20,489 nucleotides of DNA, taken from positions 1 through 20,489 of IMG/VR virus record IMGVR_UViG_3300037963_001392. One strand, given 5' to 3'. A program made the position numbers and the translations under genes. Shown in pieces: positions 4,137 to 20,037 of the stretch. The notes beneath the pieces were generated by a model. That model saw only the letters and a program-made list of their open reading frames with translations, was not told where the DNA came from and did no database searches. This DNA comes from a virus. The first letter of the stretch is position 1. Every line of letters begins with the position of its first letter.

Positions 4137-5010
4137 CTTGCTCCCACAGCAAACAATTCCCGTTGGCTTCGATCCAAAGTTTGAAGGCGCTGAGGGGATG
4201 ATTGCCCCTGGCCAGGAAGAACTGGCCAGACAGCTGATGGGCGAACCTGAGGAAGGGATTCCTGCTGTCCAGACGGATCCCGGCGAGGATCTGATTGGCG
4301 GCAAGTTCCGTTCACAGGATGACCTGCTGAAGGCGTATCAGGAGCTGGAAAGAAAACAGAGCCAAGCGTCCGGTCCCGACTCTGCAGATCTCGCACAACC
4401 TCAGGCTTACACAGCTGAGCAGGCTGTCCAGGTCTACGGCGACGACATCGTGAATGCTGTCGGAGAGGCCGGGTTGAACATGGCTGATCTGATGTGGCAG
4501 GCCGATAACGGCGGCGACATCAGCCAGCATTACGACGCACTGGCAGAGGCTGTTGGCGTTCCCCGCCAGGTTGTCGAAAACTACGTCTCCAAGGCTCAAG
4601 CAGGCAGCGGTGAGCCGGCTGAATTGTCCGACGCTGATCAGACGGAGATCGTCAATGAGATTGGCGGGTGGGATGAGTTCAACCGTCTGAGCAAATGGGC
4701 CAAGGACGGCGGCGGCTTGACTCAGGCAGAGCTGGATGATTACAACGCTGTTGCCAATAGCGGCAATAAAGCTGCGGTCCGCTGGGCGCTGAGAGCCATT
4801 CAGGCCAAGAGCAAGCCTGCTGCACCGTCAGAGCCCAAACTGATTCGTGGTCAGGCACCAGCTGAAACCAAAGCCAGGTTCAACAGCAAGGCAGAAGTGT
4901 TGGAAGCCATGGCGAAGAAGAACAGCAAGGGTCAGCGGCTGTATGACGTGGACACCGAATATCAGCGCAAGTTTGCAGAGCTGATGAACAATTCGGATCT
5001 CTTTGGTTAA
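4129..5010 (+). CDS. 9: capsid assembly (scaffolding) protein (T7 gp9-like)
   Basis: This 293-aa acidic protein is close to T7 gp9 in length (about 307), lies between portal and capsid as in T7, and overlaps the portal gene by 8 nt. The N-terminal half is rich in Glu, Gln and Pro. A central segment includes AEAVGVPRQVVENYV. The C-terminus is helical and more basic, ending YDVDTEYQRKFAELMNNSDLFG, the part that in gp9-like scaffolds binds the coat protein. Scaffold protein guides procapsid assembly and leaves before DNA packaging. Identification rests on order, length, composition and the C-terminal pattern. The start ATG 4129 is coupled to portal translation. Confidence 0.9.
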   Translation: MADLLPQQTIPVGFDPKFEGAEGMIAPGQEELARQLMGEPEEGIPAVQTDPGEDLIGGKFRSQDDLLKAYQELERKQSQASGPDSADLAQPQAYTAEQAVQVYGDDIVNAVGEAGLNMADLMWQADNGGDISQHYDALAEAVGVPRQVVENYVSKAQAGSGEPAELSDADQTEIVNEIGGWDEFNRLSKWAKDGGGLTQAELDDYNAVANSGNKAAVRWALRAIQAKSKPAAPSEPKLIRGQAPAETKARFNSKAEVLEAMAKKNSKGQRLYDVDTEYQRKFAELMNNSDLFG

Positions 5011-5121
5011 ATTGATCGCAGGTGTTCTGCACATCTGCAACTGATCGGCCCCTGCGGGGATAACCGAGAGGATTGAGAAAGCTGCGTTGCCTAACCGCAA
5101 ACTTCAATCAATTCTTCCGTC
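5011..5121 (+). promoter_or_regulatory. capsid-gene leader with motif and hairpin
   Basis: This 111-nt non-coding gap is where T7 carries its strongest late promoter, phi10. It holds TCTGCACATCTGCAAC (5026-5041), which is nearly repeated ahead of the tail fibre gene. It also holds a GC hairpin, CCCC 5049-5052 with GGGG 5056-5059, extended by CGG 5046-5048 with CCG 5064-5066 across an ATAA bulge. There is no U-run after the stem, so it is not an intrinsic terminator; an mRNA-stabilising or processing hairpin is possible. I see no T7 or consensus bacterial promoter, and no clear Shine-Dalgarno sequence directly before ATG 5122. The promoter role is inferred from position only. Confidence 0.45.
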
Positions 5122-5349
5122 ATGGCTGACGCTGATCTCAAACGAGTAGGTCAAGTTAAGGGCACCGGTGGCTCCTGGGAGGCCGGTGCTGACAAACAAG
5201 ATGGCTTTAAGGAGCTATTTCTCAAGCTGGGTTCTGCAGAGGTGCTGAGCGCCTTTGAGGAATACTGCGTGATGAAGGGCAAGGTGAAGGAAAGGAACAT
5301 CCGTGGAGGCAAATCCATGGCGTTCCCCATCACCGGTAAGCAGTCGGCT
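5122..5349 (+). CDS. 10: major capsid protein (T7 gp10-like), exon 1 of a split gene
   Basis: Exon 1 encodes residues 1-76 of the HK97-fold coat protein. It includes FLKLGSAEVLSAFEEYCVMK and GGKSMAFPITGKQSA, which align with the T7 gp10A segment GGKSAQFPVLGRTQA. It ends exactly at a codon boundary (tcg gct, 5344-5349) with the U required at a group I 5' splice site. Read through, the frame continues only seven codons into the intron to the TAA at 5371-5373, giving a non-functional 83-aa product, so splicing is needed for capsid. Joining to 5612 restores GKQSA|AYHEPG, which matches GRTQA|AYLAPG of T7 residue by residue. ATG 5122 lacks an obvious Shine-Dalgarno sequence. Confidence 0.93.
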
Positions 5350-5611
5350 GAATTGCGGCCCGCATTCGCGTAAGCGAACTGCGATAACAGGGTGAATTGT
5401 CTGGAACCCCTCCATTTTTGGGGAATCAGCAGCCAAGCCAGACCACAATCTGGAAGGTTCAACGACTAGATCCCGAGAGGAAACTCAGTAACGGATCCAC
5501 GAGTGCCCTGCACCCAACCAGTTATTAACTAGGGGGTGAAGATATAGTCTGACCTTGCGGGATGGTAAACCGTAAGAACCGAAGGATAAAGAGCCTTCGG
5601 GATAACATTTG
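5350..5611 (+). ncRNA. group I self-splicing intron in the capsid gene (262 nt, no ORF)
   Basis: The conserved core elements are visible in order. The Q-like segment is AATCAGCAGCCAAGCC (5425-5440), the R-like segment GTTCAACGACTAGA (5457-5470) and the S-like segment GAAGATATAGTCTGA (5538-5552). Stems I can draw: P1, exon GGCU 5346-5349 with GGCC 5357-5360, including the U·G splice-site pair; P10, TGC 5354-5356 with exon GCA 5612-5614; P2, TTCGC 5365-5369 with GCGAA 5374-5378, capped by GUAA; P4 CUG/CAG and P5 CCCC 5407-5410 with GGGG 5420-5423; P6 CCAGA/TCTGG 5438-5453; P7 GACTA 5464-5468 with TAGTC 5545-5549; P8 CACCC 5511-5515 with GGGTG 5534-5538; and a P9 hairpin CCGAAGG 5579-5585 with CCTTCGG 5594-5600. 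A GAAA loop sits at 5480-5483. The last base, G 5611, is the omega-G. No homing endonuclease is encoded. Confidence 0.95.
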
Positions 5612-6427
5612 GCATACCACGAGCCCGGTAAAGAAATCACAGGTGGGACTAACGATCCTTCCGCGCTAAATGAGCGCGTGTTGAATCTCGATAGCCTGAT
5701 GATATCCGACGCGGCGATCGCCGAAGTAGATGAATTGATGGCTTATTGGCCAGCACGCCAAGAGATCACTCGTGAGCTCGGACGTGCATTGGCTTATGAG
5801 TATGACAAGCGTGCTCTTCGCATTGTTTACGCCGCTTCAGTAAACACAACTGAACCGCTGAACAAGACCATCAATGAAGGCCGTATCGGTACTTCTGTCA
5901 CCCTTGGTGACGACTACACCGGCGCCGATGCAACTCGTCAAGAAAAGGGCGATGCGCTTGTGAACGCCATCTTCGATTGCAGAATCGAAATGGAGAAAAA
6001 AGATGTGCCTGTAGATTCAGGGATGTACGCCGTATTTGGCCCTGAAGACTATTACGCCATCACCCAATCTTCCAGAGCTATCAATGCTGATTTCGCTGGT
6101 GGGTATGGCGCCAACGGCACAATTGCAGAGGGCAAAACTCTGCAAATTGCAGGCATTCCCATCCTGCGCTCGAACAACGTCACCCAGGACGACTACTCGC
6201 TAGTCGCCGGGGACAACAATTCCGAATACGCCCAAGACTTGAGCAAGTGCAAAGGTCTTGTGTTCCACGGTGATTGCATGGGCGTCCTCACTCTGCTGTC
6301 TCCTGCTCTGCAGGTAACCAGCGGGGACTGGAATGTTTCTCACCAGTCCACATTGCTCGTGGCTCGTCAGAGCATCGGCATGGGCGTTCTTCGCGCTGAG
6401 TGTGCTGCCAACATCAGCATCACTTGA
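5612..6427 (+). CDS. 10: major capsid protein (T7 gp10-like), exon 2 of a split gene
   Basis: Exon 2 encodes residues 77-347 and the stop. The spliced protein, join(5122..5349, 5612..6427), has 347 aa, the same as T7 gp10A (about 345). It starts AYHEPGKEITGG and contains the coat core VLNLDSLMISDAAIAEVDELM, a counterpart of VITIDGLLTADVLIYDIEDAM in T7, then the FGPEDYYAITQ and LQIAGIPILRSNNV segments typical of phage T7-type coats. It forms the icosahedral head shell. A TTG at 5609 could nominally open this frame, but it spans the intron end and has no Shine-Dalgarno sequence, so it is not a separate gene. I see no frameshift site that would make a gp10B-like extension. A strong terminator follows within 30 nt. 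Confidence 0.93.
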   Translation, partial: AYHEPGKEITGGTNDPSALNERVLNLDSLMISDAAIAEVDELMAYWPARQEITRELGRALAYEYDKRALRIVYAASVNTTEPLNKTINEGRIGTSVTLGDDYTGADATRQEKGDALVNAIFDCRIEMEKKDVPVDSGMYAVFGPEDYYAITQSSRAINADFAGGYGANGTIAEGKTLQIAGIPILRSNNVTQDDYSLVAGDNNSEYAQDLSKCKGLVFHGDCMGVLTLLSPALQVTSGDWNVSHQSTLLVARQSIGMGVLRAECAANISIT

Positions 6428-6455
6428 TTACGCTCGGACTGGAAAGTGCGACTGC

Positions 6456-6484
6456 GGGGCTGGCTACGGCTGGCCCCTTTTTTT
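6456..6484 (+). terminator. intrinsic terminator after the capsid gene (T-phi equivalent)
   Basis: GGGGCTGGC (6456-6464) pairs with GCTGGCCCC (6469-6477), giving nine base pairs including two G·U, around a TACG loop (6465-6468). In RNA this is the very stable C(UACG)G tetraloop. Seven T residues (6478-6484) follow. It sits 28 nt after the capsid stop, the same place as T-phi in T7, and would attenuate transcription so that capsid mRNA exceeds tail mRNA. Confidence 0.95.
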
Positions 6485-6502
6485 GGCTCACCTAACATGA
6501 GC

Positions 6503-6518
6503 ACAGCACTTGTGCAGA
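6503..6518 (+). promoter_or_regulatory. GCACnnGTGCA element before gp11
   Basis: ACAGCACTTGTGCAGA contains the inverted repeat GCAC-TT-GTGC (6506-6515), or GCA/UGC around a CUUG loop in RNA. It ends 6 nt before the likely ATG of gp11 (6525). The space before the tail fibre gene has a matching element at the same distance from its ATG, and both are followed by TT and AATG at matching positions. The role (promoter, processing hairpin or translation element) is not known. Confidence 0.35.
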
Positions 6519-6524
6519 GTTCAA

Positions 6525-7187
6525 ATGGGTTCCTCCCAGCAGTCGGTAACGCCAGGGCGGACGACGCTGCTGGATGCAACAAACGTCCTGTTGCGCAACA
6601 TCGGTGAGATGCCGGTGAATTCGCTTGAAGACGAGCAGATCCAAGACGCACGGATTGCTGAGCAGACCCTGCTTGAGTTTCACAAGGAAGGGCAGATCCG
6701 CGGATGGTCCTGGAACCGTGAAGAGCAATATCCCTTTAAGCGAGATGCGGACAGTGGCGAGGTTGAGGTGCCCGCTTCGACGATGAGCTGGCTGGTTGAC
6801 CCTTATCAAGAGAACGGTCGTTACGTGCTGAGAGGCACCAGGGTCTACGACAAGAAAAATCGCACGTTCAAAATCGACGCCAACGATGCGCCGATTGAGG
6901 CGGATGTGGTCTGGTTGCTGCCCTGGGACGACTCGCCGGAGGCATACAACCGATGGACAACGATTAGAGCAGCGCGGGTGTTTTCGACCCGGATGCTGGG
7001 GTCAGATTCCGTTACCAACTACACGGCAGTTGACGAGCAAGCGGCATTGACCGAATTGATGCGAGTCGAGCTTGAGCAGTCGCAGCCGAACTCACTGACC
7101 GGCGGCCCATTCTCTGGCCCGATGCCGACCTACAGCGCTGAGCAGGGCCTGCGTCGTTCAATGTTTGGAGGCAGCTACGTTGGCTAA
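6525..7187 (+). CDS. 11: tail tubular protein A (T7 gp11-like)
   Basis: This 220-aa protein (T7 gp11: 196 aa) forms the adaptor ring between portal and nozzle. The N-terminal block LLDATNVLLRNIGEMPVNSL matches the SAVNDILASIGEPPVSTLE block of T7. Family features follow in IRGWSWNREEQYPF and in YVLRGTRVYDKKNRTF, which parallels the T7 stretch YVNRGGYVYDRTSQS. I chose ATG 6525 because homology begins shortly after it. TTG 6510 is in frame but falls inside the inverted repeat, and ATG 6497 is in another frame that ends after 36 codons. The Shine-Dalgarno sequence is weak (CAGAG, 6515-6519). The gene overlaps the start of gp12 by 8 nt. The N-terminus carries an extra Ser/Gln/Thr-rich leader before the conserved part. 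Confidence 0.9.
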   Translation: MGSSQQSVTPGRTTLLDATNVLLRNIGEMPVNSLEDEQIQDARIAEQTLLEFHKEGQIRGWSWNREEQYPFKRDADSGEVEVPASTMSWLVDPYQENGRYVLRGTRVYDKKNRTFKIDANDAPIEADVVWLLPWDDSPEAYNRWTTIRAARVFSTRMLGSDSVTNYTAVDEQAALTELMRVELEQSQPNSLTGGPFSGPMPTYSAEQGLRRSMFGGSYVG

Positions 7188-9750
7188 TCTCGTCAGCTAC
7201 ACGATCCCAAATCTTATTCAGGGAGTCTCGAACCAACCTGACGCACAAAGGGATCCCAGCCAAGCATCAATTCAAATCAATGGCGTCAGCTCGATCGCTG
7301 AAGGGCTGAGAAAACGAGATCAAACGAATGTGCTGGCCAGGGTCAGCGAGACGCCTTTTGGCGATGCTTTTATTCACTCCATCCTGAGAGACACAACAGA
7401 GGAGTATCTGGCTGTCATCACGAATGCCGGCATTCAGGTGTTTGATCTTGACGGCACCGAGATCACGGTGGAGGAGGCAACTGATGCCTACGACTACCTG
7501 GATTCAGTCACTGATGCGCGTGAGCAGCTGCGTGCAGTGACGATTGCGGATTACACGTTCATCTGCAATCTGAACACCAATACAGCGATGCAGGCGGACA
7601 CTGCGCCTGCAATTGCCAGACCAGAGCTGCATGAGTGTTTGATCTGGGTTCGTGCTGCAAATTACGGCCAGACCTACGTCGTCAACGTCAACGGCAATGA
7701 AGTCACCGTTGAGACTCCAGTCGCGCCTGTTGTCACCAGCGGAAGCACGGTCACCGAGAACAGGATCAGCTCTGAAGAGATTGCAGAAGAGATCATCACT
7801 GGATTGGGCACTGCTGGCCTGACTGGCTACGACCTGGACCAGCAGGGTTCAGTCATCTGGATCCGCGGGGCCAATCCAATTACGGTCGAAGTTTCTGATG
7901 CCAGATCCAACGCAGACATCACTGCAATTTTGGATTCAGTGCAGGCATTCACAGAGCTGCCGACGATCGCGCCAATCGGCTATCAGGTCACAATTGAAGG
8001 AGATCCTGGCAACCAATTTGACACTTATTACGTCCAGTTCCAGCCGCGTGGTTCTGATGTAACTGACCCTAACGACTACGATCCAGCCGCTTTCGGTGAA
8101 GGCTCATGGCTGGAAACTGTCAGCCCTGGTGTTGAGTATCTGGTCGATCCAGACACCATGCCTCACCTGCTGATTCGCAAGGCTGATGGTGAATTTTGGT
8201 TTGGCCCTGCTGATGGTCAGACCGTGGCGGACATTCCCAATGGTGTGCCGTCATGGGGAGAGCGCACCTGCGGTGACTTTGATACAGCGCCGGATCCCAG
8301 CTTCATTGGCAATCCAATCAACGACGTATTCATTTATAAAAATCGTTTGGGATTCTTGGCTGACGAAAACATCATCCTTAGCCAGAGCCGCGAGTTCTTC
8401 AATTTCTTCCCTGACACCACCACCACAATTCTGGATACAGATCCGATTGATCTGGTTGCCAGCAACAACAGGGTTTCAATTCTTCGATACGCCGTTCCCT
8501 ACCAGGATGAACTGATCCTTTTCAGTGCGCAGTATCAGTTCAGGTTCAACGCGGCGGAGAGCGTTCTGACGCCAAAGACGGCACAGCTGACTGTGCTGAC
8601 CCAATACGAGGTGGACGTGAATGTGCGCCCACAGCAGGTGGGTGGCGGGATCATCTTTGCGCAGGAGAACGGTGAGTGGTCGCAGATGCGCGAGTTCAGC
8701 GTGAGAGGTGCTGGAACAGCGCTGACAGCTGATGCTCAAGACCTGACGGGATACGTCTCCAGCTATGTGCCGTCAGAGCTTTTCAAGCTTGCGGTCAACG
8801 ACACCGGCAACGCGGTGTTTGCAATCAGCGGCCGGAACGTCACCGGTGGAACCGACTACAGAAACAGGATTTACGTCTACAAGTATTTCTTGCGCAATCA
8901 GGGCAGCGGTGTCGAGAGAGCGCAATCCAGCTGGAGTCACTTTGAGCTGACTGGTGCTGACCAGATCCTCCAGGTGCTCTGCGTTGAGGAGATGCTTTAT
9001 CTGCTGGTGCAATACGGCGATGACGTTTATCTAGAACGGATGTCGGTGATGGACCGCCAGGCGGAAACCGCTGGTGCGGCGCCGTTCCCGATGTTGTTGG
9101 ATCGACGAGTCACGAACACTGACCACACTCCGGCAGGTGTTCGCATGGCGGCTGCCACCTACGACGAACAGACGAACACTTCGACGTTCACTGTGCCTTA
9201 CACGATGACGGCACGAACCCAGATCTGGTCGATGTGGGATCTGACTGATGACGACACAACCGGCCCGGTCCTGATTGGTGAGGCTGATGAAGGCACCACA
9301 ATCACCGGCAGAGGTGACTGGTCATCGACTGATTGCGTGTGTGGCGAGCCATTTGAATTCCGTTATCGATTCACCAAATTCAAGATGGTGAAAGACATTG
9401 GCGGCGGCAGGGCTGCGGTCAACTCAATGCGAACGCAGATCAGGACAGCAAAGCTCAGATACCACGAGACCGGATTCTTCAAGGTCATGGTGATGCCTGA
9501 ATACAGGGACACCGGTGAATACACCTACGACGGCACTATTTCGGCTGTGCGGAATGCTGCGATTGGCAGGCCAGACATCTCGCACGGTGAAGACACTGCC
9601 CGATTCTTTGAAGGTGTTTTTTCTGTGCCGATTTACGGGCAAGGTGACCAGATCTTTGTTGAAATCAGAAGTGATCAACCCATGCCTTGTAAGTTCTCGA
9701 CATGCGAATGGATTGCACTTGTGACAGGAAGAGCACAGGCTCTGCAATGA
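7180..9750 (+). CDS. 12: tail tubular protein B / nozzle (T7 gp12-like)
   Basis: This 856-aa protein (T7 gp12: 794) builds the hexameric tail nozzle. It starts MANLVSYTIPNLIQGVSNQP, parallel to the T7 start MALISQSIKNLKGGISQQP. Other shared blocks are INGVSSIAEGLRKR, DYTFICNLNT, TMPHLLIRKADGEFWF, and INDVFIYKNRLGFLADENI (from residue 380) continuing into FFNFFPDTT. The start is TTG 7180: GGAGG at 7167-7171 lies eight bases upstream and the homology begins exactly there. An in-frame TTG at 7165 lies upstream of that GGAGG and adds only five residues with no support. It overlaps gp11 by 8 nt and gp13 by 4 nt (ATGA). Confidence 0.95.
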   Translation: MANLVSYTIPNLIQGVSNQPDAQRDPSQASIQINGVSSIAEGLRKRDQTNVLARVSETPFGDAFIHSILRDTTEEYLAVITNAGIQVFDLDGTEITVEEATDAYDYLDSVTDAREQLRAVTIADYTFICNLNTNTAMQADTAPAIARPELHECLIWVRAANYGQTYVVNVNGNEVTVETPVAPVVTSGSTVTENRISSEEIAEEIITGLGTAGLTGYDLDQQGSVIWIRGANPITVEVSDARSNADITAILDSVQAFTELPTIAPIGYQVTIEGDPGNQFDTYYVQFQPRGSDVTDPNDYDPAAFGEGSWLETVSPGVEYLVDPDTMPHLLIRKADGEFWFGPADGQTVADIPNGVPSWGERTCGDFDTAPDPSFIGNPINDVFIYKNRLGFLADENIILSQSREFFNFFPDTTTTILDTDPIDLVASNNRVSILRYAVPYQDELILFSAQYQFRFNAAESVLTPKTAQLTVLTQYEVDVNVRPQQVGGGIIFAQENGEWSQMREFSVRGAGTALTADAQDLTGYVSSYVPSELFKLAVNDTGNAVFAISGRNVTGGTDYRNRIYVYKYFLRNQGSGVERAQSSWSHFELTGADQILQVLCVEEMLYLLVQYGDDVYLERMSVMDRQAETAGAAPFPMLLDRRVTNTDHTPAGVRMAAATYDEQTNTSTFTVPYTMTARTQIWSMWDLTDDDTTGPVLIGEADEGTTITGRGDWSSTDCVCGEPFEFRYRFTKFKMVKDIGGGRAAVNSMRTQIRTAKLRYHETGFFKVMVMPEYRDTGEYTYDGTISAVRNAAIGRPDISHGEDTARFFEGVFSVPIYGQGDQIFVEIRSDQPMPCKFSTCEWIALVTGRAQALQ

Positions 9751-10193
9751 AATGGGCGGACGCAACTGAAGAGGCTGCACTTCACATTGCGATCCACCTA
9801 AGAGAAGAAGACAAGAAAGAAGTTTGGTTGAGCCATGGCCTCACGCCCACTGAGGCCGTGATGTGGAGCTGGTCTGAGAGTGATTTATGCCGCTGCATCG
9901 CTTCCGCCGAGGGCGAACCATTGGCTCTGACGGGCCTAGTTCGGAATAGGATCTGGCTACTCGGCACTGAGAAGTTGACCGCCACACGCGAGAGACGTTT
10001 GCAACTGTGCAAAGAAGGGAGAGAATGGGTTGAGACGTGCATTGAGCGAGCTGGGATGGCCATCGGCAATGACGTTTATGCGAAGAACACTCGCAGCATC
10101 CGCTGGCTGAAACATCTCGGGTTTGAGGTGGCAACTCCTAGGCCAATGGGTCCAAGCGCTGAGTTGTTTTCTGAGTTCTGGAGGGCTGCCTGA
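9747..10193 (+). CDS. 13: gp13-like protein (GNAT-like fold, virion assembly)
   Basis: This 148-aa protein is the length of T7 gp13 (138) and in its place between gp12 and gp14. The second half, EPLALTGLVRNRIWLLGTEKL then NDVYAKNTRSIRWLKHLGFEV, matches the gp13 pattern FPLAIGG...CWFVTS and VWVGNTSHIRFLKTIGAVF. The N-x-R/H-I-R-W/F-L-K-x-x-G motif is what acetyltransferase-fold proteins use near the acyl-CoA site. T7 gp13 is needed for normal internal core assembly; whether it acetylates anything is unknown. ATG 9747 overlaps the gp12 stop (ATGA). An in-frame extension back to TTG 9702 lies wholly in gp12 and is unlikely. Confidence 0.85.
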   Translation: MKWADATEEAALHIAIHLREEDKKEVWLSHGLTPTEAVMWSWSESDLCRCIASAEGEPLALTGLVRNRIWLLGTEKLTATRERRLQLCKEGREWVETCIERAGMAIGNDVYAKNTRSIRWLKHLGFEVATPRPMGPSAELFSEFWRAA

Positions 10194-11086
10194 TGGATCC
10201 AGTGACCATGAGCCTGATCAGTGGTGGCATTAACGCCACCACTGGGGTGCTGGGCGCGTTTGGGCAACGGCAAGCGCAACAGCAGAAATACCTGAGTGAC
10301 CTAGTTTTTCAGAAAGCCAACAACAGATTTGCTGTTTGGCAGGCAGGTTTTAACGCCAGGGTTCAGGACGCCAACAAAGAGCACCAGTTCTGGAAAGAAA
10401 CGGTCAACTACAACCAGCAGCGATCGTTTGTTAATTCGCAGCGCAATGTCGAGCTGTTGCGTGAGGCCGATCAGGCTCAGGTTGTTTTTCAAAATCGAGC
10501 ATCTGCCGGAGCTGCCTATGCAGACGACAGTGCTGCTCTGAGTGATCAGCTGGCTGAAGCAGAAATGGCTTCAGCTGTCGCTCAGCAGCAATACACCTGG
10601 AGAGCGCTGTCAGCACGGGCATCGGTGCAGGCGCTGAATCAAGAAGGAAACTCTGTTGATCGAATCGTCAACAACTATGCGTTTCAGCTGGGTGATCAGC
10701 TGTCGCTTGCGGCGATTGAATCCGACATGAGGGAGAGGCAATACGACAGAGCACAAGCAGGGCAGGTTGCCTCATATCTGAATAGATGGAACAGCCAGAC
10801 CTTCTATGAAGGTCAGCAATTCATGGATCCATTGGCGCCATTCGCGCCGCTGCCAACACTGATCACGCCACCGCCACCGACCAGAACAGGGGCACCACCG
10901 AGCAACGCAGCATTTGCGATGAATGTTGCCACTGGATTGCTGGGTGGCGTCAACGCTGGTTTTGGCACTTACAGCTCAATGAAGCGGTTGCAGATGCCTA
11001 GCAGCAGCACTGGGCCTGGCACTCCAGGCAACGGTCTGGGCGGGAATCTCTTGAGTTCAATTCAGAGCTACATGGGTAACGATTGA
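10193..11086 (+). CDS. 14: internal virion protein B (T7 gp14-like)
   Basis: This 297-aa protein is longer than T7 gp14 (196). It starts with a glycine-rich hydrophobic segment (MSLISGGINATTGVLGAFG, from residue 4), followed by a long Gln/Ala-rich helical body (about 25-195) with repeated Q-aromatic and NxQ patterns. A Pro-rich linker (about 216-242, PPPPTRTGAPP) leads to a second Gly/Ala hydrophobic segment (AFAMNVATGLLGGVNAGFG). In T7, gp14 leaves the head first and forms a pore in the outer membrane; the same is inferred. ATG 10193 overlaps the gp13 stop (TGATG), with GGAGGG beginning at 10180. The Pro-rich linker and C-terminal hydrophobic segment are additions relative to T7. Confidence 0.87.
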   Translation: MDPVTMSLISGGINATTGVLGAFGQRQAQQQKYLSDLVFQKANNRFAVWQAGFNARVQDANKEHQFWKETVNYNQQRSFVNSQRNVELLREADQAQVVFQNRASAGAAYADDSAALSDQLAEAEMASAVAQQQYTWRALSARASVQALNQEGNSVDRIVNNYAFQLGDQLSLAAIESDMRERQYDRAQAGQVASYLNRWNSQTFYEGQQFMDPLAPFAPLPTLITPPPPTRTGAPPSNAAFAMNVATGLLGGVNAGFGTYSSMKRLQMPSSSTGPGTPGNGLGGNLLSSIQSYMGND

Positions 11087-13410
11087 TGGAACGTCTTTTC
11101 AGTAATCAGATCCGCCCACAGGCGCAGCCGATCAGTTCATTCGTTCAGCCTCAGCAGTTAAGGCGAGCCAATGCGGCACAGCCGGCGTTGCTTGGCAATG
11201 TCAGCACGATCGTTCAGGCGCAACAACAAAGTGGTGGTTCAGTCCAAGGCTTCAATCAGTTTGAGCAGCTGGCAAATTCGTTAGCGCCGTTCAGCAAGCA
11301 GCTCACGAAAGGAATCGATCGCGGTTTCAGGCTGTATGCCACCAGCAACATTGAGGCTGGATATTACGAGGAGCTGGAAAACCAGCGAGTCAGGTCAACG
11401 ATGAACCTCCAGCAGCAGCAGGAGATTGCTGCTGCTGATGCTGCTGAAACACAGGGGCAGCTGGAAAAGGTTGATCCTATTGCCGGCACTTTGCTGCGTG
11501 AGGCAAATCCTTGGAAAGCGATTGGCCGGCGTCGTGCGTTGGCTCAGTTGGCCGCGGGACAAATTGGTGCTGCCATGGAGGCAGAGCTCGTTAATAACGC
11601 TGGGGCGCTTGCTGGTCTACAGCCTGGCAGTCCAGCGCTGGCTGCAAGAAAAGTTGCAGTTACCCAGAGTGTTTTTTCAAGGTTTGGCTTAACTGGATCT
11701 GAGCCAGAAGCAGCGGTTTATGTCACTCCTGCTGTCAATAAAGCATGGGATAGATTTACTGAGCGGCAGGGTGCTCTCTATAACGCTGAGATTTACGACA
11801 GCTCAGTTCAGCTAACAAATAAAGCTGTAATGCAGGAAATGCTCGGTGACCTTAGGGACGGAATTACGCTCCCAGATGGCACTGTGATTCAGCCCGGTGA
11901 CCCTAGGTTTGGCGATCTCGCTGGGAAAAGGGCAACACTTCAAATTGACCAGGGCCTGAGATTGCTTGCTGGTGAAGATAAGAGAAAGGCGCTGAAAGAA
12001 ATCAATCAAAACCTTGCAATGCTTAGGGCTTCTGGATTGCCAGGCCTGGAAGATGCAGTGAATAATATTCGGCTTGGCAACTCCAGGATGCCTATGGAAA
12101 AGCGGCCAACGTGGCTGCAGTCCAACCCTTATCAATTAAACGATTACACCAACAATGCGCTAAAGCAAAAGCAAGATACTTATGAATTAAAGCAAGAGGC
12201 TATTAAGCAGGACTTAGAGCAAAGGTGGAACCAGGACATCAGCGGGCTGCCCTATGACTCGGCAGAAAGGAGAGAGCGCATCAATGAACTTGAGACGTAT
12301 GCGCGTGAACAAGGCTATAGAGATTCAGAAGGCTGGTTGCGTGAGAAGAATGCTGATGATGAGGCCCGTGCGATTGACACCGAAGGAGGTGGTGGCGGCC
12401 CTGCGCTGACATCAGAAGAGCGGTTGGATTTCCTTGAGGAGTTAAATCAACTCCCGCCCAGCCAATTCGCAACACCTGAATCCACAAACGCTGCATATAA
12501 ATTTGCGCGTGACATGGCAGCTAGAGAGCCAACGCTGGAGAAGAAAGTTAAAGCGTATCAGGAATATGTGAAGGTCATTCAAGGCAAGCAGAAACAATTT
12601 GCTGGCCTGCCGTCTAATAACGGATTTGATACTGCTCTAAGCAATGAGCTCAAGGTTTCTTTGAATGATCCAACGCTTTTAGCGCTGAAACCAGCCGGGG
12701 CGACAATCGGCGTTTTTGGCCAAATTCAAATGCCCGAAGGGCAAGCGCTTACTCCAGATGGTCAAAAGTATTTTGCGTTTGTCAACAACCTGCGTCAGGC
12801 AATAACTCGGAAAGCGTTCGACAAAATCAATGAATGGCGCGAGGCCAATGGTGGTGCACAGATCCCAATTGATGTGCTGAGAGCGAAGGTCGGTGATGCG
12901 GCAAAGGAGATTCGCGATTCACCTGCTTATGAGAAAGACCTGAGCAAGCTGAAGGAGACTCAATCTCCAGGAGTGACACCCCAGCGAGGCGGCCCTGACC
13001 GCAGTGGAACGGCCAGCCCTAACGCAGCGCAGGCCCCGGTCCCTGCCGCTGCTGCTGACACGATCACGCAACAGCAGGTCAGCCAATACCGCACCAAGCC
13101 AATCATGGATGGCAAGTGGGTCTATCAAGAGCTGGTGAACTACGACACGACTCGTCAAACCAGCGTCAAGCTCAATGACCTTGCTGAGAAGGCTGGTGTT
13201 GCGCCACTGCGAATGGTGATTGAGCAGTTGAAGCTGTATCCAGCCTTGGATCCTGACGGAAAGATTCGCGAGGTTTTGCTGAAAGAGCTGAACAAGAACA
13301 AGCAGAGCTCAACTACCGCAGTGCCATACGGCAACGACTCGCAATCGCCGCGTTCCCCTGGCTCATGGCTGACCGCAATGGTGATGCCCGTTTCCACCCC
13401 TAACGCTTAA
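11086..13410 (+). CDS. 15: internal virion protein C (T7 gp15-like)
   Basis: At 774 aa it is close to T7 gp15 (747) and follows gp14 with a 1-nt overlap (TGATG). It is predominantly helical, rich in Gln, Ala, Leu and Glu. It has a Gly run (GGGGG) in the middle, a Pro/Ala/Gly-rich linker (about 630-660) and a C-terminal block with YRTKPIMDGKWVYQELVNYD and a helical LNDLAEKAGVAP. In T7, gp15 and gp16 form the tube across the periplasm and inner membrane that pulls in the DNA. Identity rests on position, length and composition; sequence similarity to T7 is weak by eye. Part of the middle (12121-12240) counts at about 40% GC, lower than its surroundings, suggesting mosaic origin. Confidence 0.75.
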   Translation: MERLFSNQIRPQAQPISSFVQPQQLRRANAAQPALLGNVSTIVQAQQQSGGSVQGFNQFEQLANSLAPFSKQLTKGIDRGFRLYATSNIEAGYYEELENQRVRSTMNLQQQQEIAAADAAETQGQLEKVDPIAGTLLREANPWKAIGRRRALAQLAAGQIGAAMEAELVNNAGALAGLQPGSPALAARKVAVTQSVFSRFGLTGSEPEAAVYVTPAVNKAWDRFTERQGALYNAEIYDSSVQLTNKAVMQEMLGDLRDGITLPDGTVIQPGDPRFGDLAGKRATLQIDQGLRLLAGEDKRKALKEINQNLAMLRASGLPGLEDAVNNIRLGNSRMPMEKRPTWLQSNPYQLNDYTNNALKQKQDTYELKQEAIKQDLEQRWNQDISGLPYDSAERRERINELETYAREQGYRDSEGWLREKNADDEARAIDTEGGGGGPALTSEERLDFLEELNQLPPSQFATPESTNAAYKFARDMAAREPTLEKKVKAYQEYVKVIQGKQKQFAGLPSNNGFDTALSNELKVSLNDPTLLALKPAGATIGVFGQIQMPEGQALTPDGQKYFAFVNNLRQAITRKAFDKINEWREANGGAQIPIDVLRAKVGDAAKEIRDSPAYEKDLSKLKETQSPGVTPQRGGPDRSGTASPNAAQAPVPAAAADTITQQQVSQYRTKPIMDGKWVYQELVNYDTTRQTSVKLNDLAEKAGVAPLRMVIEQLKLYPALDPDGKIREVLLKELNKNKQSSTTAVPYGNDSQSPRSPGSWLTAMVMPVSTPNA

Positions 13411-13413
13411 ACC

Positions 13414-16400
13414 ATGGATTCTCTATTTGACCTGAAGCCACTTGATGAGCTCGATGAGGCTGACCTGACGCCGATTGAGTATTCATATCCAGACGCCAAG
13501 GCACCGCCTGCATCGCCTTCGCCGTTGAATAACGCGCTCACTGACACAGCAGCCCTTGGAATTGACTGGCTGCGAACAAACGTCGGCAATCAGCTTGGCC
13601 CAATTCCACAGCAGCAGCTGAATCAACTGACGCCAAGCCAATTACGAGCGTTGAAAAATCAACGATTTGAAGAGGCTGCTGGCTGGGGCAAGCCGTTGGC
13701 TCAGTTTGTGAATGCTGTGACCTCACCGGCCGTGAGCGAAGGGGCAATTCTTGGCATCCCAAATGCCTTGATGAAGCTGGCCGATTTTGTCGTGGACCCG
13801 GAAGGTGCGCTGCCTGGGGACGTTCCGCAGATCCCCAAGAATGCGCTGGCACCGTTCAACCCGGCACGCAGGGGAGATGTCGTCAACACACCGGCTGATG
13901 ACGCTGGCTATGTGATCGGCGCTGAAGTTGCTGGTGAAGTGGCAGGTGCATTGACGGGTTCCACGTTGATGCGGCGAGTCCCGCAGGTGGCATCGCTCAC
14001 TAACCGTCTGCGTCAAACGCAAACTGCACGACGGATTGCGGTTGCTGCCAAGACAAGTCAAACAAAACGGCGTGCATTGAACCTGACCCGCTGGGGCGGG
14101 GAGGCAATGATCGACACGTCTCTAGCTGCGTTGTATCAGGACGCAGATGAGGGGAATGTCCTTGATCTGCTGCCGTTTGAAACAGCAATCTCCACCAGCA
14201 AGGACAACACCTATGGGCAAAACCTGCTGAACAAGGTTGTTGCTGACGGGATCTTGCTGCCGCTGACGTTGATTGGCGCTGGTCAGTTGGCGCCATGGAC
14301 AAGACGGTTGGCTGATGGCGATCTCGCCTGGGGGCTGGATGAAATTGCCGAGGTTGAGCTTGCACCGTATGTGCCGCGCAGTTTCACGCAGCCACAACTG
14401 CCACCAGCGTCATCTGTTGATCAGCAGTTTGATTCAGCTATTGATCGCACCACCTCTGCACAGCTGCAGGGTCAGCAGGTAGCGCAGCAGCAGGAACGCA
14501 TCAACACGATGTTCCCTGGACTGCGGCAACTGAACAGCGACCAGCTGGCAATCGACATCACGTCTGTCGGCGGCACCGGCACCGGCAACAAACTCAGCAA
14601 GGTCGAGACGCCTGAAGGCGAGGTTGTCCCTGGCGGCCCGGAGTTTGAATTCAAACAACGTCCCAAGCAGGGCGCACTTGATCTGGGTGAATTTGGCGAT
14701 GCACCGGATCCACGACCAGAGATTTCCACGTATCTGGCAGAGCTCGATGAGCTCGATGATGCAGGGCTGCGTCGTGTGCTGGGCAACGTCGATCAGACCG
14801 AGCAGATCAGCCTGAGGCAGCAGTCACTGGAGGAAGCGCAGGCTCGCGTGACAGCAGCTGAGGCCAAGATTGCTGATGTGGAAGAGCGGCTGGCGTTGCC
14901 TGAAGGCAGCAAGCGCAAGCTGACCGAGCAGGGTTCCAAGCGTCTGCTGAACAAGGCGTACAAGGAACTCGAAGCAGCACGGCTGCAGGTGAGCAATCAG
15001 TCAGCTGAGCCGTTCACTGCAGCCAGTGTTGGCGATCAGCTGGCGATGGAGCTGCAGCAGAGCCTGGACTTGAGCGCGACTCCTGACGTTCAACTGCCCA
15101 GCCTGGAGAAGTTTGAATTTGATGAGGCCACCGGGATGTGGCGCACCAAGAAAGCAGACGGTGGCTATCCCAGCCTGGAGGCGTATCGCGAAGACATCTC
15201 CGGCTGGAACCGTGATCTGCTCAGAGGGATGGCATCGCCGGAGAACAGCCCGCAGATCGCTGCACTGGTGAAGGCAAGGACTGGCCGCCGGGTGTGGGCT
15301 GCCAAGAAGCAGGACATCGTTGATGCGCTGGTTGAATACGCCGGCCGCACCAAGCGATACGCGGTTGACAGCACTGAGCAGCTGCCACTGGAGGGGCTGC
15401 AGCAAAACCTTGACCTAGCCACTGAGCCGACATTCCAGCGTCGTGGCATGAGCGCTGCTGAGCGCGAGCTGATGAAGAAGAAAATTCTGCAAGCTGCGAT
15501 TGACGCAGGTGAGGTGCAGGCAGACATCACGCCGCCACCAGCAGGTCTACCGCAGATTCAATTCAACCAGGGCGAGTTGATTGAGTCGCTGTTTAACGCT
15601 GATGCAAGCGGCCAGCTTGATCTGCTCAAAGGCTATGCCGACGGCGAAATCCCGACCTACAAGGCAGGCGGTAAAAACGCTGAAGCTCTGATTGAGGAAG
15701 TGCGGTCGCGGTTCGATTGGGCAGAGCTCGATGGTGCTGGCCAGGTCGCATCGAAGAAAGCGATGTGGGAGAAGGAGGGATGGAACAAGTTGACGTGGGA
15801 TGAGCGCAAGCGGTTGATGATGCTCAACCGTGAAGAGACAGGCCTGTATCGCGCAGTTGCAGGGGAAAAAGTTCCACAGCTTGCCAGGGCGAATCCCAAT
15901 GAAGTCAGTGCTCAACTGCTGGAGTCAGGCAGAACGGAAGTCAACACTCAATTGTTGGAGTGGACTCCAGAAGGCAACGTGCCAGTCACAAACTCAAAGT
16001 TTCCTGAGTTCAAAGCTGGTCGCAAATTGTTTCATGGCACAAGTAAAGAGGCTGCTGCTGCAATTCGCGCCGGAGGATTCAAAATCCCTGCGAAAGGGAA
16101 AGGTCGCGCCAGGGTGCCTGGGGATCTTGGCGATGGCGTTTATTTTTCACCAAGCAGGCAAGGCGCATCTGCTTACGGGGATGCTGTAGTGATCAACAAA
16201 GCGACTGGAGAAAGCCGATTTGAAAGTAATTTTATTGAAGGCACTGTGCCTGCTGGCGCCCGCATTCTTGACTACAACGGAACACCCAAAGATCTTGCCA
16301 AAGAACTTAAGGTGAGTCCAGCTAGATTGCAGCAAAAACTTAAATCACAGGGATATGATGGACTTTCAGCAAGAGCTGCAGGTTCAACAACTGATGAGGC

Positions 16401-16599
16401 AGAAATTGTCATTTGGAATCAAGATGTCTTAGACCAAATATCTGGCACTAAGTCTCCGGTTCCAAAGTCAAGATCAAGGCGCAAGTCCAAGAACACCAAG
16501 ACCCCTGATCAGGTCAAGGTTGATCAAACCAACAAACGAATCGACGACAAAGTTCGTCGGCTCGAAAAGCAACTAGAGGAGGCAACCTGCAATGGCTGA
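13414..16599 (+). CDS. large ejection-type virion protein with C-terminal ADP-ribosyltransferase domain
   Basis: This 1061-aa protein lies in the internal virion protein cluster, 3 nt after gp15 and overlapping the next gene by 8 nt. The N-terminal third is helical with Ala/Gly-rich segments (VIGAEVAGEVAGALTG; VVADGILLPLTLIGAG). A coiled coil with EEAQARVTAAEAKIADVEERL follows (about 471-491), then a helical part with ALVKARTGRRVWAAKKQDIV, then two copies of a 12-residue repeat (830-853). Residues 869-1008 look like a PARP/polyvalent-type ART: LFHGTSKEAAAAIRAGGF with H874; GDGVYFSPSRQGASAYG with Y910; GYDGLSA; and AEIVIWNQDVL with E997, which parallels the catalytic NEYIVYD of PARP1. The tail is basic (KSRSRRKSKNTK). 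No transglycosylase motif is seen. Packaging and ejection are inferred from position; the ART fold is inferred from motifs. Confidence 0.8.
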   Translation: MDSLFDLKPLDELDEADLTPIEYSYPDAKAPPASPSPLNNALTDTAALGIDWLRTNVGNQLGPIPQQQLNQLTPSQLRALKNQRFEEAAGWGKPLAQFVNAVTSPAVSEGAILGIPNALMKLADFVVDPEGALPGDVPQIPKNALAPFNPARRGDVVNTPADDAGYVIGAEVAGEVAGALTGSTLMRRVPQVASLTNRLRQTQTARRIAVAAKTSQTKRRALNLTRWGGEAMIDTSLAALYQDADEGNVLDLLPFETAISTSKDNTYGQNLLNKVVADGILLPLTLIGAGQLAPWTRRLADGDLAWGLDEIAEVELAPYVPRSFTQPQLPPASSVDQQFDSAIDRTTSAQLQGQQVAQQQERINTMFPGLRQLNSDQLAIDITSVGGTGTGNKLSKVETPEGEVVPGGPEFEFKQRPKQGALDLGEFGDAPDPRPEISTYLAELDELDDAGLRRVLGNVDQTEQISLRQQSLEEAQARVTAAEAKIADVEERLALPEGSKRKLTEQGSKRLLNKAYKELEAARLQVSNQSAEPFTAASVGDQLAMELQQSLDLSATPDVQLPSLEKFEFDEATGMWRTKKADGGYPSLEAYREDISGWNRDLLRGMASPENSPQIAALVKARTGRRVWAAKKQDIVDALVEYAGRTKRYAVDSTEQLPLEGLQQNLDLATEPTFQRRGMSAAERELMKKKILQAAIDAGEVQADITPPPAGLPQIQFNQGELIESLFNADASGQLDLLKGYADGEIPTYKAGGKNAEALIEEVRSRFDWAELDGAGQVASKKAMWEKEGWNKLTWDERKRLMMLNREETGLYRAVAGEKVPQLARANPNEVSAQLLESGRTEVNTQLLEWTPEGNVPVTNSKFPEFKAGRKLFHGTSKEAAAAIRAGGFKIPAKGKGRARVPGDLGDGVYFSPSRQGASAYGDAVVINKATGESRFESNFIEGTVPAGARILDYNGTPKDLAKELKVSPARLQQKLKSQGYDGLSARAAGSTTDEAEIVIWNQDVLDQISGTKSPVPKSRSRRKSKNTKTPDQVKVDQTNKRIDDKVRRLEKQLEEATCNG
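15901..15972 (+). repeat. two tandem 12-codon units just before the ART domain
   Basis: Units 15901-15936 and 15937-15972 both begin GAAGTCA and encode EVSAQLLESGRT and EVNTQLLEWTPE (residues 830-841 and 842-853). Seven of the first eight codons are identical or conservative, but many third positions differ, so the duplication is old or under selection. It lies at the boundary between the GC-rich body and the AT-richer ART region. Confidence 0.6.
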
Positions 16600-19500
16600 T
16601 TGTTCAAAGATCGAAGCTGAACTTCAGCGTGCACGGGAACAGCAAGCTGCTGCGCGAAAGCTCAAGCGGCAGGTTGATGCCGAGGCGAAAGCCACTGCTG
16701 AGATGAGAGCGGAGGAGGAGGCGACAGGCGCCAAGCCATTCCGCACGTTCTCCATGGTGGACGGCACCAAGATCAGGATCAATCCGCGTGAGTTCTACCG
16801 GCAGGTGGAGCTGGACAACATCGGCCTGGGTGAAGACAAGATCCGTGAGTTGGTGCGTGCACGGTTTGACAAGGACGCCAAGCCTGATGGCAGCGAAGGG
16901 CTGAACATCAACTACGCGGAGATGGAGTGGAACGAGGAGAACGTCAACATCCTTCTGGAGTTGGCCGGTGCTCGTCGCATGAAGTCTGCTGCCGGCGCTG
17001 AGCTGGCAATGGAATTCACGGAAGAAGCGGCTCGTGAGCAGCTGCTCGACAACATCCGAATGCTGGGTGGCGATGCTGCTGAGATTGCCAGGGTGATGGG
17101 GCGGAACAGTTCAGGACTGAAGAAGCTGCCAGTTCTGATGGTGATGGCGAAGAAGATGAAATTCGACAGCGCTCGGTATTACGCCGACTTGCTGGATGAC
17201 ACGGGCACGTTGATTGATACGTTCGGCGTCAGCCCTGCGATGCAGGCCAGGCTGTCGCGTGCCTCACAGTTCACTCATTTCTTTGAGCAGTTTGATGCAC
17301 TGGTTTCCAGGAAGGTGGGCCAGGCGTTGCGATCACGTCAGTATGACTCGCTGGACGGGATTGGAGATGAGATTGATTTTGGAGATATCAAGAGCCTTGA
17401 GCTGGAACTGTTGGAAGAGGGCAGCCTTGCTGCTCAGGTGAGTGAGGCAATCCTGCAGGGCAACGCAGAAGACTTGCGCAAGATTGCGCGTGCCAAGCGT
17501 GTTGGCGCATTGAATGAAGTTGGCCTGAATGAAGGCAACATCTCTGCGCAGCTCAGGATCCTGAACAACTTGCGCCGGGACAACATGTTCCTGAGCCCGT
17601 CTACCTGGACGCAGCGCAATGTGGTGGCTGGTGCGCTGGTGAATTTCTCTTTTGGTTTTGACGATTTTTACTCCATGGCCTTCAAGAGAAAGGATCTGGG
17701 GGATGCCTATCGAATGTCGATGTTCGCTTTCCGCAATATGCAGATGGGAATGAGCGCTGCATTCGGCAATGCGTTCGAGATGCTGACAACAGGCAAGGCG
17801 ACATTCACGCAGGCCGGAATCAAGGAAGGTCTTGACCCGATGTCGCTGGTCAACAGGAAAGAGAACAATCAGCAGATCATGCTGAAAACCAGGGATGACC
17901 TGAACACTTTGTGGGAAGAACTTGTTGAGGGGAATGCTGCGCAGAAGGCTGGCGCAATAACCGACGCAACGGTGAAGCTGCAGTTGCCACTGTCAGCGAT
18001 GACATTGATGAGCACCGGCATTCGCTATTTGCTGGGCAATGTCATCGAAAGGTTGCCGGGTGGTAGCACTGCTGGATATTCACCAGGCTTTTCGCTGCTG
18101 GCTGCTGGTGATGAAGTGACCCGCAAGATGGCGTTCGACTGGGCTGCCAGCAAGACGGCTTACGACAACGCCTTGAACGAATGGGATCAGCTTGTTGATA
18201 AGCCAGAAGGAATCTCCAAGGCGCAGTGGGTAGCTGATCGCGCCAATGAGCGAGCAGAGGCTGCAGTGTTTGCGCCAGAGAAGATGACTGCTGATGACCT
18301 GGCAGTGATCAGACGCCAAGCGGGCGGGCTGCAGTTTGGCGATATGGGCGATGACGCGCTGCGCCTGAAGCTGTTCAACGATCAGGCTGGACTGCCAAAC
18401 CTTGGAACACCTGAAGGCAGAGCTGGCGCACAGCGTGGTGCTGAAGCCACGTTCACGCAAAAGATTGACGGCAAGGTTGGCGTCGGCATTCAGATGATCA
18501 GGCAGAACCCGCTGGGTGGCTGGATCATGCCGGTGTTTCAGACCCCATATAACGGTCTGAAGTGGCTACTCAGTCGTGACTTCTTAATTGCGCTGCCAAA
18601 ACAATTCATCAAGGAAATACGTCAGGCCAAGGGAGTTGCTGACGATCTGCCATTCACGGCAGATGAGATGGCTGACGCTCGTGCCAGAACACTGAATGCA
18701 GCAATGATCAGTGCGACAACTTATGGGCTGTGGCAATCAGGCGTGTTCCGCGATGGTGGCAGCTTTAACCCTGATCAAAGGAAGCGTGAGAACAACCCAG
18801 CACTGGGCGCACCGTATTCATTTGCTTTCAGCATGGGCAACATTCTTGGCATGTCCAAGCTTTCAATTCCAGGCGCATCAATTGATCTGGTTGACCTGAT
18901 GGGATTGCAGGCTGACGTGCACCGTGCATTCCATGAAAACATCATCAACGATACGGATGTTCAAGAGTTCATGTTCTCTATCAGCCAAGCGTATATGCGT
19001 GTGCTGGATAACAAGTCAACGCTGACTGGCGTGATGGACATCCTCAACATGATCAATCGGATAGCAATGGGTCAGAAGGTTGACTTCACACAAGTCATGG
19101 CAGGTCAGATGAATGGCACGTTGCCGTTGTCTGGTTTCCTGACTGCCGCCTCACGCGGCTTCCAGGACTTGAATGAGCAACAGACGTTTGGCCGTCGGCA
19201 GTTGTCTTCAGATGAGGTTGAAGCGCTGGGCAAAGATCCGAACTGGAGCGTGTTCCAGAAGTTTGCGGCCAGGGTTGCTCGCAACTATCCAATCATTGGA
19301 ACCATTGGCTATCAGTATCAAGACAAGGATTGGTTGATGCGTGATCGGCGCCGTCCGTTCGGTATGCCACTGGACTCTGCTGCACCCTTTGCAATCCTTC
19401 TGACGAATGACAGCCCACTGGATCAGTGGATGAACAAGCACGGTTTTGGCGCCAAGCCAAAACCTGAAGGCAAGGTGGGCGGCAGTGAACTGGGCCTGCC

Positions 19501-19996
19501 GACCGGCACCGCACCAACAACAATGTCGATGGATGAAGAGCGGACCTATCGGATTGAGATGAACCGAGCCAAGGGTGAAATTCCAGTTGAGTTGCTCCTA
19601 GGTAAAACCAACGCAGTAATCAACACAGGCACCAACGTCTACAACATCAACCAATACACCCGAGGCAAGACGCTAATTGAAGCGTTGACAGCACTCAGTG
19701 AGGATCCCCGATACAACGCTGATTTGGCATTGCCCTACGGGCCGAGCATTGCCAACACAGAGCTGCCCATTTGGGATCAATCATTGGCCAAGAGAAAAGA
19801 AAGGATCAATGATCCTGGCGGTCTCTACAAAGTGTTCAACGCAATTGTCGATTACTACGACAAGCTGGGATTGATGGCGATGGCTCGACAGCACCCTGAC
19901 TTTGTGAAGAAGGCAATTGCCAACACGCAAGTTAGGAAGGAGAGAGAGCTGGAGAACTACGAGGCACAGTCACCACTGGGTCTTTCCCGGCAATGA
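16592..19996 (+). CDS. 16: internal virion / ejection protein (gp16-position)
   Basis: This 1134-aa protein is the last gene before the tail fibre, the place of T7 gp16 (1318 aa). GAGGAGG (16576-16582) supports ATG 16592. The N-terminus is a charged coiled coil (about 5-45). The body is helical with many Met-rich segments (FRNMQMGMSAAFGNAFEML; SAMTLMSTGIRYLLGN; WIMPVFQTPYNGLKWLL at 644-660). The MPVFQTPYN motif is of a kind I recall from large phage internal and polyvalent proteins. T7 gp16 carries an N-terminal lytic transglycosylase; no comparable catalytic Glu motif is visible here. The likely role is part of the periplasmic/inner-membrane DNA ejection channel. Assignment rests on order, size and composition. 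Confidence 0.72.
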   Translation: MADCSKIEAELQRAREQQAAARKLKRQVDAEAKATAEMRAEEEATGAKPFRTFSMVDGTKIRINPREFYRQVELDNIGLGEDKIRELVRARFDKDAKPDGSEGLNINYAEMEWNEENVNILLELAGARRMKSAAGAELAMEFTEEAAREQLLDNIRMLGGDAAEIARVMGRNSSGLKKLPVLMVMAKKMKFDSARYYADLLDDTGTLIDTFGVSPAMQARLSRASQFTHFFEQFDALVSRKVGQALRSRQYDSLDGIGDEIDFGDIKSLELELLEEGSLAAQVSEAILQGNAEDLRKIARAKRVGALNEVGLNEGNISAQLRILNNLRRDNMFLSPSTWTQRNVVAGALVNFSFGFDDFYSMAFKRKDLGDAYRMSMFAFRNMQMGMSAAFGNAFEMLTTGKATFTQAGIKEGLDPMSLVNRKENNQQIMLKTRDDLNTLWEELVEGNAAQKAGAITDATVKLQLPLSAMTLMSTGIRYLLGNVIERLPGGSTAGYSPGFSLLAAGDEVTRKMAFDWAASKTAYDNALNEWDQLVDKPEGISKAQWVADRANERAEAAVFAPEKMTADDLAVIRRQAGGLQFGDMGDDALRLKLFNDQAGLPNLGTPEGRAGAQRGAEATFTQKIDGKVGVGIQMIRQNPLGGWIMPVFQTPYNGLKWLLSRDFLIALPKQFIKEIRQAKGVADDLPFTADEMADARARTLNAAMISATTYGLWQSGVFRDGGSFNPDQRKRENNPALGAPYSFAFSMGNILGMSKLSIPGASIDLVDLMGLQADVHRAFHENIINDTDVQEFMFSISQAYMRVLDNKSTLTGVMDILNMINRIAMGQKVDFTQVMAGQMNGTLPLSGFLTAASRGFQDLNEQQTFGRRQLSSDEVEALGKDPNWSVFQKFAARVARNYPIIGTIGYQYQDKDWLMRDRRRPFGMPLDSAAPFAILLTNDSPLDQWMNKHGFGAKPKPEGKVGGSELGLPTGTAPTTMSMDEERTYRIEMNRAKGEIPVELLLGKTNAVINTGTNVYNINQYTRGKTLIEALTALSEDPRYNADLALPYGPSIANTELPIWDQSLAKRKERINDPGGLYKVFNAIVDYYDKLGLMAMARQHPDFVKKAIANTQVRKERELENYEAQSPLGLSRQ

Positions 19997-20015
19997 CACC
20001 CGGCCTACACTGAGG

Positions 20016-20031
20016 TCTGCACCAGTGCAAC
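20016..20031 (+). promoter_or_regulatory. CTGCAC-N3-TGCAAC element before the tail fibre gene
   Basis: TCTGCACCAGTGCAAC lies in the 41-nt gap between gp16 and gp17, where T7 has promoter phi17. It matches the capsid-leader element (5026-5041) at 13 of 16 positions and contains the inverted repeat TGCAC-CA-GTGCA. It ends 6 nt before ATG 20038, the same distance as the element before gp11. Only limited similarity to the remembered Syn5 RNA polymerase promoter (GCACC core) can be argued. Function unproven. Confidence 0.4.
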
Positions 20032-20037
20032 CTTTGA

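Follow-up and report, generated by a model that had tools for sequence, protein, structure and literature searches.

A divergent ADP-ribosyltransferase domain inserted in a putative split gp16 ejection protein of a T7-like phage

Phage ADP-ribosyltransferases (ARTs) that are packaged in the virion and injected into the host are an established theme. Described examples include T4 Alt, fusions of ARTs to MuF proteins, and polyvalent proteins, among them one of an N4-like podovirus (PMC9503650, PMC5512222). According to a survey, ARTs occur in only about 3% of podoviruses (PMC9503650). In T7, proteins of the gp16 type belong to the capsid core and, once ejected, make up the inner section of the channel; their C-terminal part then lies in the cytoplasm and their N-terminal part in the periplasm (PMC8954989). 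Takeover of the host by T7-like phages is usually thought to begin with early transcription, and their ejection proteins are viewed chiefly as forming a channel. Here we describe a virus record of 20,489 bases (IMG/VR IMGVR_UViG_3300037963_001392, analysed over its whole length and called the window below), which has a T7-like gene order running from structural genes through an ejection cluster to a tail fibre. One protein of the ejection cluster, 1061 residues long (W1061), contains a predicted ART domain. We hypothesise, with moderate confidence, that this domain is recently acquired cargo, packaged and ejected with the front half of a split gp16, and that it ADP-ribosylates a host target at entry.

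An earlier note on the window had proposed an ART at residues 869-1008 of W1061, with H874, Y910 and E997 as its signature. The translation of the open reading frame (ORF) has all three residues at those positions. They occur in the order of the H-Y-[EDQ] clade, with His on strand 1, Tyr on strand 2 and Glu on strand 5, and align with the same residues of five other ARTs, and the H-Y-E triad is kept in all six aligned sequences, which come from W1061, from the phages S-CBP42 and P60, and from the loci L089, L090 and L091. A profile was built from six other viral ARTs with the window excluded, some of these six having originally been picked up through similarity to the window domain; it matches the domain with 63.6 bits (E=2.8e-18), and the best of 2000 shuffled sequences reaches 8.7 bits. 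Run against 2670 ORFs of related loci, the same profile matches only W1061 and gp16 of P60 and S-CBP42. Two of the six ARTs have independent support, L091 from the Pfam PARP model (E=2.6e-8, over the cut-off) and L090 from ART-PolyVal (E=1.4e-5, under the cut-off). A profile of the ART set matches PARP-like ARTs of myophages (E=2.5e-9) and, among PDB sequences, finds chains of PARP14/15/10 first (E of 2.4e-5 to about 3e-5).

The Pfam matches of the isolated domain do not reach the curated cut-offs. PF00644 (PARP) gives E=7.9e-4 and 19.4 bits, with a cut-off of 26.7 bits, and PF18760 (ART-PolyVal) gives E=3.4e-3 and 18.6 bits, with a cut-off of 31.2 bits. In a search of the whole record PF00644 gives E=1.4e-5, and none of 14 control genomes is matched. 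NCBIfam gives only a weak match to RNA 2'-phosphotransferase, an ART relative, and phmmer with the single domain against PDB sequences returns only chance matches, to extracellular domains of kinases. In the first alignment of six ARTs, conservation was too low in every stretch to serve for a collection scan. A match to PF04760 (IF2_N, E=4e-4) was rejected as a separate domain; it covers the short helical stretch TPKDLAKELKVSPARLQQKLKSQG, which follows motif 2 and precedes motif 3, and probably reflects a local likeness of the ART to a helix-turn-helix. The ART is the only catalytic domain that Pfam and PHROGs recognise in W1061. We regard it as close to certain that the window domain is a divergent H-Y-E ART. 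Its exact place within the ARTs is less firm than the assignment itself and is not secure; because both family cut-offs were missed, it should not be filed under ART-PolyVal or PARP, and neither should it be filed as a homologue of Alt.

AlphaFold2 gives a model of the domain with moderate confidence (pLDDT 63, pTM 0.63). When this model is compared with the PDB using Foldseek, the top 50 matches are all ARTs, of the PARP and the diphtheria toxin/exotoxin A kind (best E=1.7e-3). The earlier note is supported in its claim that an H-Y-E ART is present in a T7-like ejection-cluster protein. VIA-align places ParT first with a middling Z of 7.6 (rmsd 4.8, 117 residues aligned). In a library of viral structures the best named matches include a MuF-fusion protein, at the top, and PARP-like and PolyVal ARTs. 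A model of the S-CBP42 ART was set aside as evidence (pLDDT 59, pTM 0.41, with weak PDB matches of which the best are ARTs).

The structural matches also include RES, MbcT and NatT, which are NAD-degrading enzymes of toxin-antitoxin systems, and some phage ARTs are thought to be NADases. The domain might on these grounds be a NADase, or a related enzyme that consumes NAD+ and depletes or rewires the NAD+ signalling of the host, and not a transferase acting on macromolecules. We consider this very doubtful: an H-Y-E triad with best Foldseek matches of the PARP and exotoxin type is typical of transferases, and the few molecules expected per virion could hardly drain the NAD+ of a cell.

The ART appears as a clean insertion when the window is compared with its nearest relative, the locus L002. 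The DNA identity to L002 is 86% over 5660-11566 and 84% over 14309-15851, and beside the insert it is 95% over 15946-15988 and 91% over 16465-20044. At the position of the insert L002 has just a short unrelated linker and no ART. The segment delimited in this way is wider than the domain as the earlier note had drawn it (Table 1), and it lies in a Pro/Lys-rich linker ahead of a short C-terminal tail. The reading frame of the ART is unbroken over 145 residues. Its composition is foreign, with a third-position GC of 33% in the domain against 61% in the remainder of the gene. The ART is absent from all 38 other family members in alignment A10, L002 included, and was not found elsewhere in the 44 family records searched, some of which are fragments. 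The simplest history would be a recent in-frame gain in the lineage of the window phage. Searches for a close relative of the window ART found none in viral contigs or plasmids, and none in genome contigs with either the single domain or an alignment of the window and L090 domains as query. When 39 family members were scanned with Pfam, no convincing match to another cargo domain appeared.

The abrupt change of composition at the insert, in a single metagenomic record, could also be read as an assembly chimera, in which the ART segment was joined to the contig in error. This is hardly credible. Both junctions are in frame and within the linker, conserved sequence resumes on either side, and comparable ART fusions are present in the isolate genomes of S-CBP42 and P60.

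The comparison with L002 shows one further feature. Over 11566-14309 of the window, which covers the gp15-position gene and the start of W1061, identity is 69-81% or there is no match, apart from a short piece at 86%, whereas both flanks are 84-91% identical. This suggests a stretch that may be recombinant or fast-evolving.

The earlier note placed the gene for W1061 between genes in the gp15 and gp16 positions. It does lie in the ejection cluster, but the gp16 position needs revision. The product of the next gene matches columns 732-1545 of a gp16 profile built from S-CBP42, P60, Syn5, SS120-1, P-SSP7 and S-TIP28 (hhalign 99.8%, E=1.7e-27), and is the C-terminal part of gp16. The N-terminal region of W1061 matches columns 242-309 of this profile weakly (hhalign E=4e-4, probability 36%, 62 columns), around its most hydrophobic stretch (residues 271-293). 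Because the next gene corresponds to the C-terminal part of gp16 and W1061 weakly matches the N-terminal part, the two together look like a split gp16 of which W1061 is probably the front; the assignment of the N-terminal half is less firm than that of the C-terminal half. By homology W1061 is a member of a conserved ejection-cluster gene family, and its relatives are encoded by 62 viral loci.

ARTs are also found in the gp16 of other phages. A tblastn search with the window domain brought up gp16 of the Synechococcus phages S-CBP42 and P60 with insignificant E-values, and on inspection these proteins contain LYHAT, GSGVYTA...YARSYG and EEVFLFDP, in that order. Two uncultured lineages likewise have an ART in gp16, namely L089 (matched gene for gene by L088) and L090, whose gp16 belongs to phrog_6651 with E=4e-145. 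The domain thus occurs in gp16 (phrog_6651) of S-CBP42, P60, L089 and L090, and gp16 of Syn5, P-SSP7 and S-TIP28 has no ART at the corresponding position. The earlier note had proposed that conservation of H, Y and E be checked in homologues. All three are kept in the ARTs of the other ejection proteins, but they cannot be checked in orthologues of W1061, because the ART, apparently a recent insertion, is absent from all close relatives.

Between S-CBP42 and P60 the ART is 75% identical and the rest of gp16 34-45%; at third codon positions the likeness is 0.56 in the ART against 0.35-0.39 elsewhere. This fits a module exchanged between phages, to which a stronger constraint on the domain may contribute.

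Two other gp16 proteins carry additional sequence. In SS120-1 (L083:1021-6441, 1807 aa) a different insert of about 250 aa stands at the position of the S-CBP42/P60 ART (S-CBP42 355-507); Pfam gives nothing convincing for it, and its position suggests another cargo domain. The gp16 of L089 (L089:4825-10677) has 1951 aa, about 340 aa more than that of S-CBP42, and so has a further insert besides the ART. Outside this group, a protein family of large phages, approximately 1000-1500 aa long and present in phiOC, pf16 and uncultured relatives (L077, L078, L093, L095, L096, L097), has a PARP-like ART close to its C-terminal end. L092:2989-12297 encodes a giant protein, over 3100 aa long, with an ART-like domain near residue 1005 that has Gln in the third motif (H-Y-Q).

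A match of a different kind comes from the pre-ejectosome of cyanophage A4. Residues 1419-1599 of chain B in PDB 9k3a match the window model with Z 5.0 and rmsd 4.7, over 105 aligned residues with 27% identity. The chain is identical to ORF27 of A-4L, in which the segment reads LYHGT...GSGTYFS and, by eye, seemingly has Thr at the expected Glu position; the profile match of this stretch is weak. Homology between W1061 and ORF27 was tested and none was detectable. The stretch is nevertheless part of the solved structure of a packaged core, the most direct precedent for packaging in the virion. In ORF27 (L098:20116-25269, minus strand) a stretch that by eye looks like ParB/sulfiredoxin directly precedes the ART-like segment, and the protein may be a polyvalent one with two effector domains.

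The apparent loss of the catalytic Glu in A-4L would agree with the idea that the window domain is itself a degenerate or non-catalytic ART, kept for structure or binding, or a recent neutral insertion in the course of being lost. So would the facts that the window insertion is found once, is recent and foreign in composition, and scores under the Pfam cut-offs. We nevertheless find this quite improbable. In the window the three active-site positions and the motifs around them are intact in an open frame, and H-Y-E is also kept in the more strongly conserved domains of S-CBP42, P60 and L089.

A further alternative concerns timing. The ART could act late, in the producing cell, or on phage proteins, with the ejection protein as a carrier only and no effector role in the first minutes. 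W1061 is a late structural gene, insertion in a linker tolerates any fused domain, and the survey itself offers the alternative that such ARTs protect the packaging apparatus. We judge this unlikely, given that gp16-type ejection proteins have been chosen repeatedly as ART carrier in separate lineages and that an ART-like domain in a packaged pre-ejectosome favours a role linked to ejection.

The reading that we favour is delivery of the ART at entry. The ART module would have entered W1061, the probable front part of a split gp16, by an in-frame insertion in a flexible linker close to the C-terminus. W1061 would be synthesised late and packed in the internal core of the virion, and it would exit the capsid together with the other ejection proteins, either ahead of the DNA or along with it. 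The position of the ART, C-terminal in the front half and past the hydrophobic stretch, could allow it to reach the cytoplasm, and this is the weakest step. Beyond the inner membrane it would use host NAD+ to modify a macromolecule of the host by ADP-ribosylation at the very start of infection; candidates are a defence component and the machinery of transcription or translation. A few enzyme molecules would modify the host target before phage gene expression, as T4 Alt does.

Several points weigh against delivery at entry. ARTs require NAD+, and NAD+ is cytoplasmic. W1061 weakly matches the N-terminal part of gp16, which in T7 is periplasmic (PMC8954989), where no NAD+ is expected. The catalytic activity of the ART is predicted from sequence, and the structural model is of moderate confidence, as noted above. 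Any effects must be catalytic, because there are few ejection proteins per virion. Finally, the exact insertion is known from one sequence only, so that selection on it is not measurable.

If the ART does ride the ejection channel, modification of the host would start before any phage gene expression, and podoviruses, so far poor in ARTs (3%, PMC9503650), would gain a way to inject ADP-ribosylating enzymes. Unrelated cyanophages have domains like this one in their ejection proteins, so that phages may have used the ejection machine repeatedly to carry cargo. A broader proposal, possible but held only tentatively, is that T7-like ejectosome proteins of the gp16 type serve in general as carriers, whether whole or split, with effector domains such as ARTs swapped among phages into their linkers, and that the channel for the DNA itself brings these exchangeable, host-modifying enzymes into cyanobacteria at time zero. 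The patchy, modular distribution provides related phage pairs with and without cargo (those like P60, S-CBP42, L089 and L090, as against Syn5 and P-SSP7). The idea is directly testable, because named Synechococcus hosts are on record for both P60 and S-CBP42.

The features of the window are collected in Table 1. The gene order is portal, head assembly, major head protein, tail tubular proteins, a gp13-like protein, proteins of 297, 775, 1061 and 1134 aa, and tail fibre. Synechococcus phage S-SRP02 and two uncultured marine T7-like phages are among the relatives, so that a cyanobacterium is the likely host. Near the start of the window an exonuclease gene (phrog_107, 285-1034) encodes 250 aa that cover only 120-374 of the 542 positions in the family profile, and this gene may be split or shortened.

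Table 1. Features of the window discussed in the text, with positions, strand and the basis of each assignment.
Feature	Position	Strand	Basis
ART domain, residues 869-1008 of W1061	16018..16437	+	profile, Pfam sub-threshold, Foldseek
H874 codon, motif 1 (LFHGT)	16033..16035	+	
Y910 codon, motif 2 (LGDGVYFSPSRQGASAYG)	16141..16143	+	
E997 codon, motif 3 (AEIVIW), catalytic Glu position	16402..16404	+	
Inserted segment, in-frame, low GC3, approximate boundaries	15989..16464	+	comparison with nearest relative L002
Conserved basic linker and predicted coiled-coil tail ending ATCNG, common to relatives	16465..16599	+	
W1061, 1061-aa ejection-cluster protein, probable N-terminal half of split gp16, with ART insertion	13414..16599	+	ORF
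1134-aa protein, homologue of cyanopodovirus gp16 C-terminal part	16592..19996	+	hhalign
775-aa protein, gp15 position	11083..13410	+	position; relatives in S-SRP02 and two uncultured T7-like phages
gp14-position protein	10193..11086	+	position; weak PF24072 T7_gp14, E=0.13
gp13-like internal virion protein	9702..10193	+	phrog_308 E=1.4e-26, PF11090 E=1.6e-4
Upstream T7-like structural genes (portal, head assembly, major head protein, tail tubular proteins)	2514..9750	+	phrog_449, 1052, 267, 446, 457

Among known systems, gp16 of P60 and S-CBP42 resembles the window protein in that an H-Y-E ART of about 150 aa is inserted in a T7-type ejection protein of a cyanopodovirus, and in both cases the domain is patchy among relatives. 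The differences are that the ART of P60 and S-CBP42 comes after the N-terminal part, at about residue 355, in gp16 proteins that are intact and 1610-1639 aa long, and that it is approximately 25-30% identical to the window domain; these proteins are annotated merely as internal virion protein. ORF27 of A-4L (9k3a) shares with W1061 an ART-like segment in a large packaged ejectosome protein, but has no detectable homology to W1061 and seems to have Thr at the Glu position.

The polyvalent ARTs (ART-PolyVal and Tox-ART-HYD2, as in the vRNAP protein of Roseovarius Plymouth podovirus 1, PMC5512222) are similar in having H and Y motifs in a large protein that is believed to be packaged and injected. 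Their described active site is H-Y-D (PMC5512222), whereas that of the window is H-Y-E, and polyvalent proteins have two or more unrelated catalytic domains, whereas in W1061 Pfam and PHROGs recognised the ART only. T4 Alt, to which the earlier note had likened the domain, is a parallel in function, being a virion-packaged, injected ART that is active at the start of infection. As a family relationship the parallel fails: Alt is a free-standing head protein of a myovirus and belongs to the R-S-E family (Alt/VIP2), while the window domain is H-Y-E. The MuF-ART fusions (PMC9503650) are alike in joining an ART to a packaged head protein, but there the carrier is a head morphogenesis protein and not a T7-type trans-envelope channel. 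A literature search, with most subscription papers outside its reach, found no description of ARTs in T7-type gp16 ejection proteins. In comparison with the systems described above, the new points are the T7-type ejectosome as carrier, the placement of the domain within it, what appears to be a recent in-frame gain, and the apparent swapping of such domains between phages.

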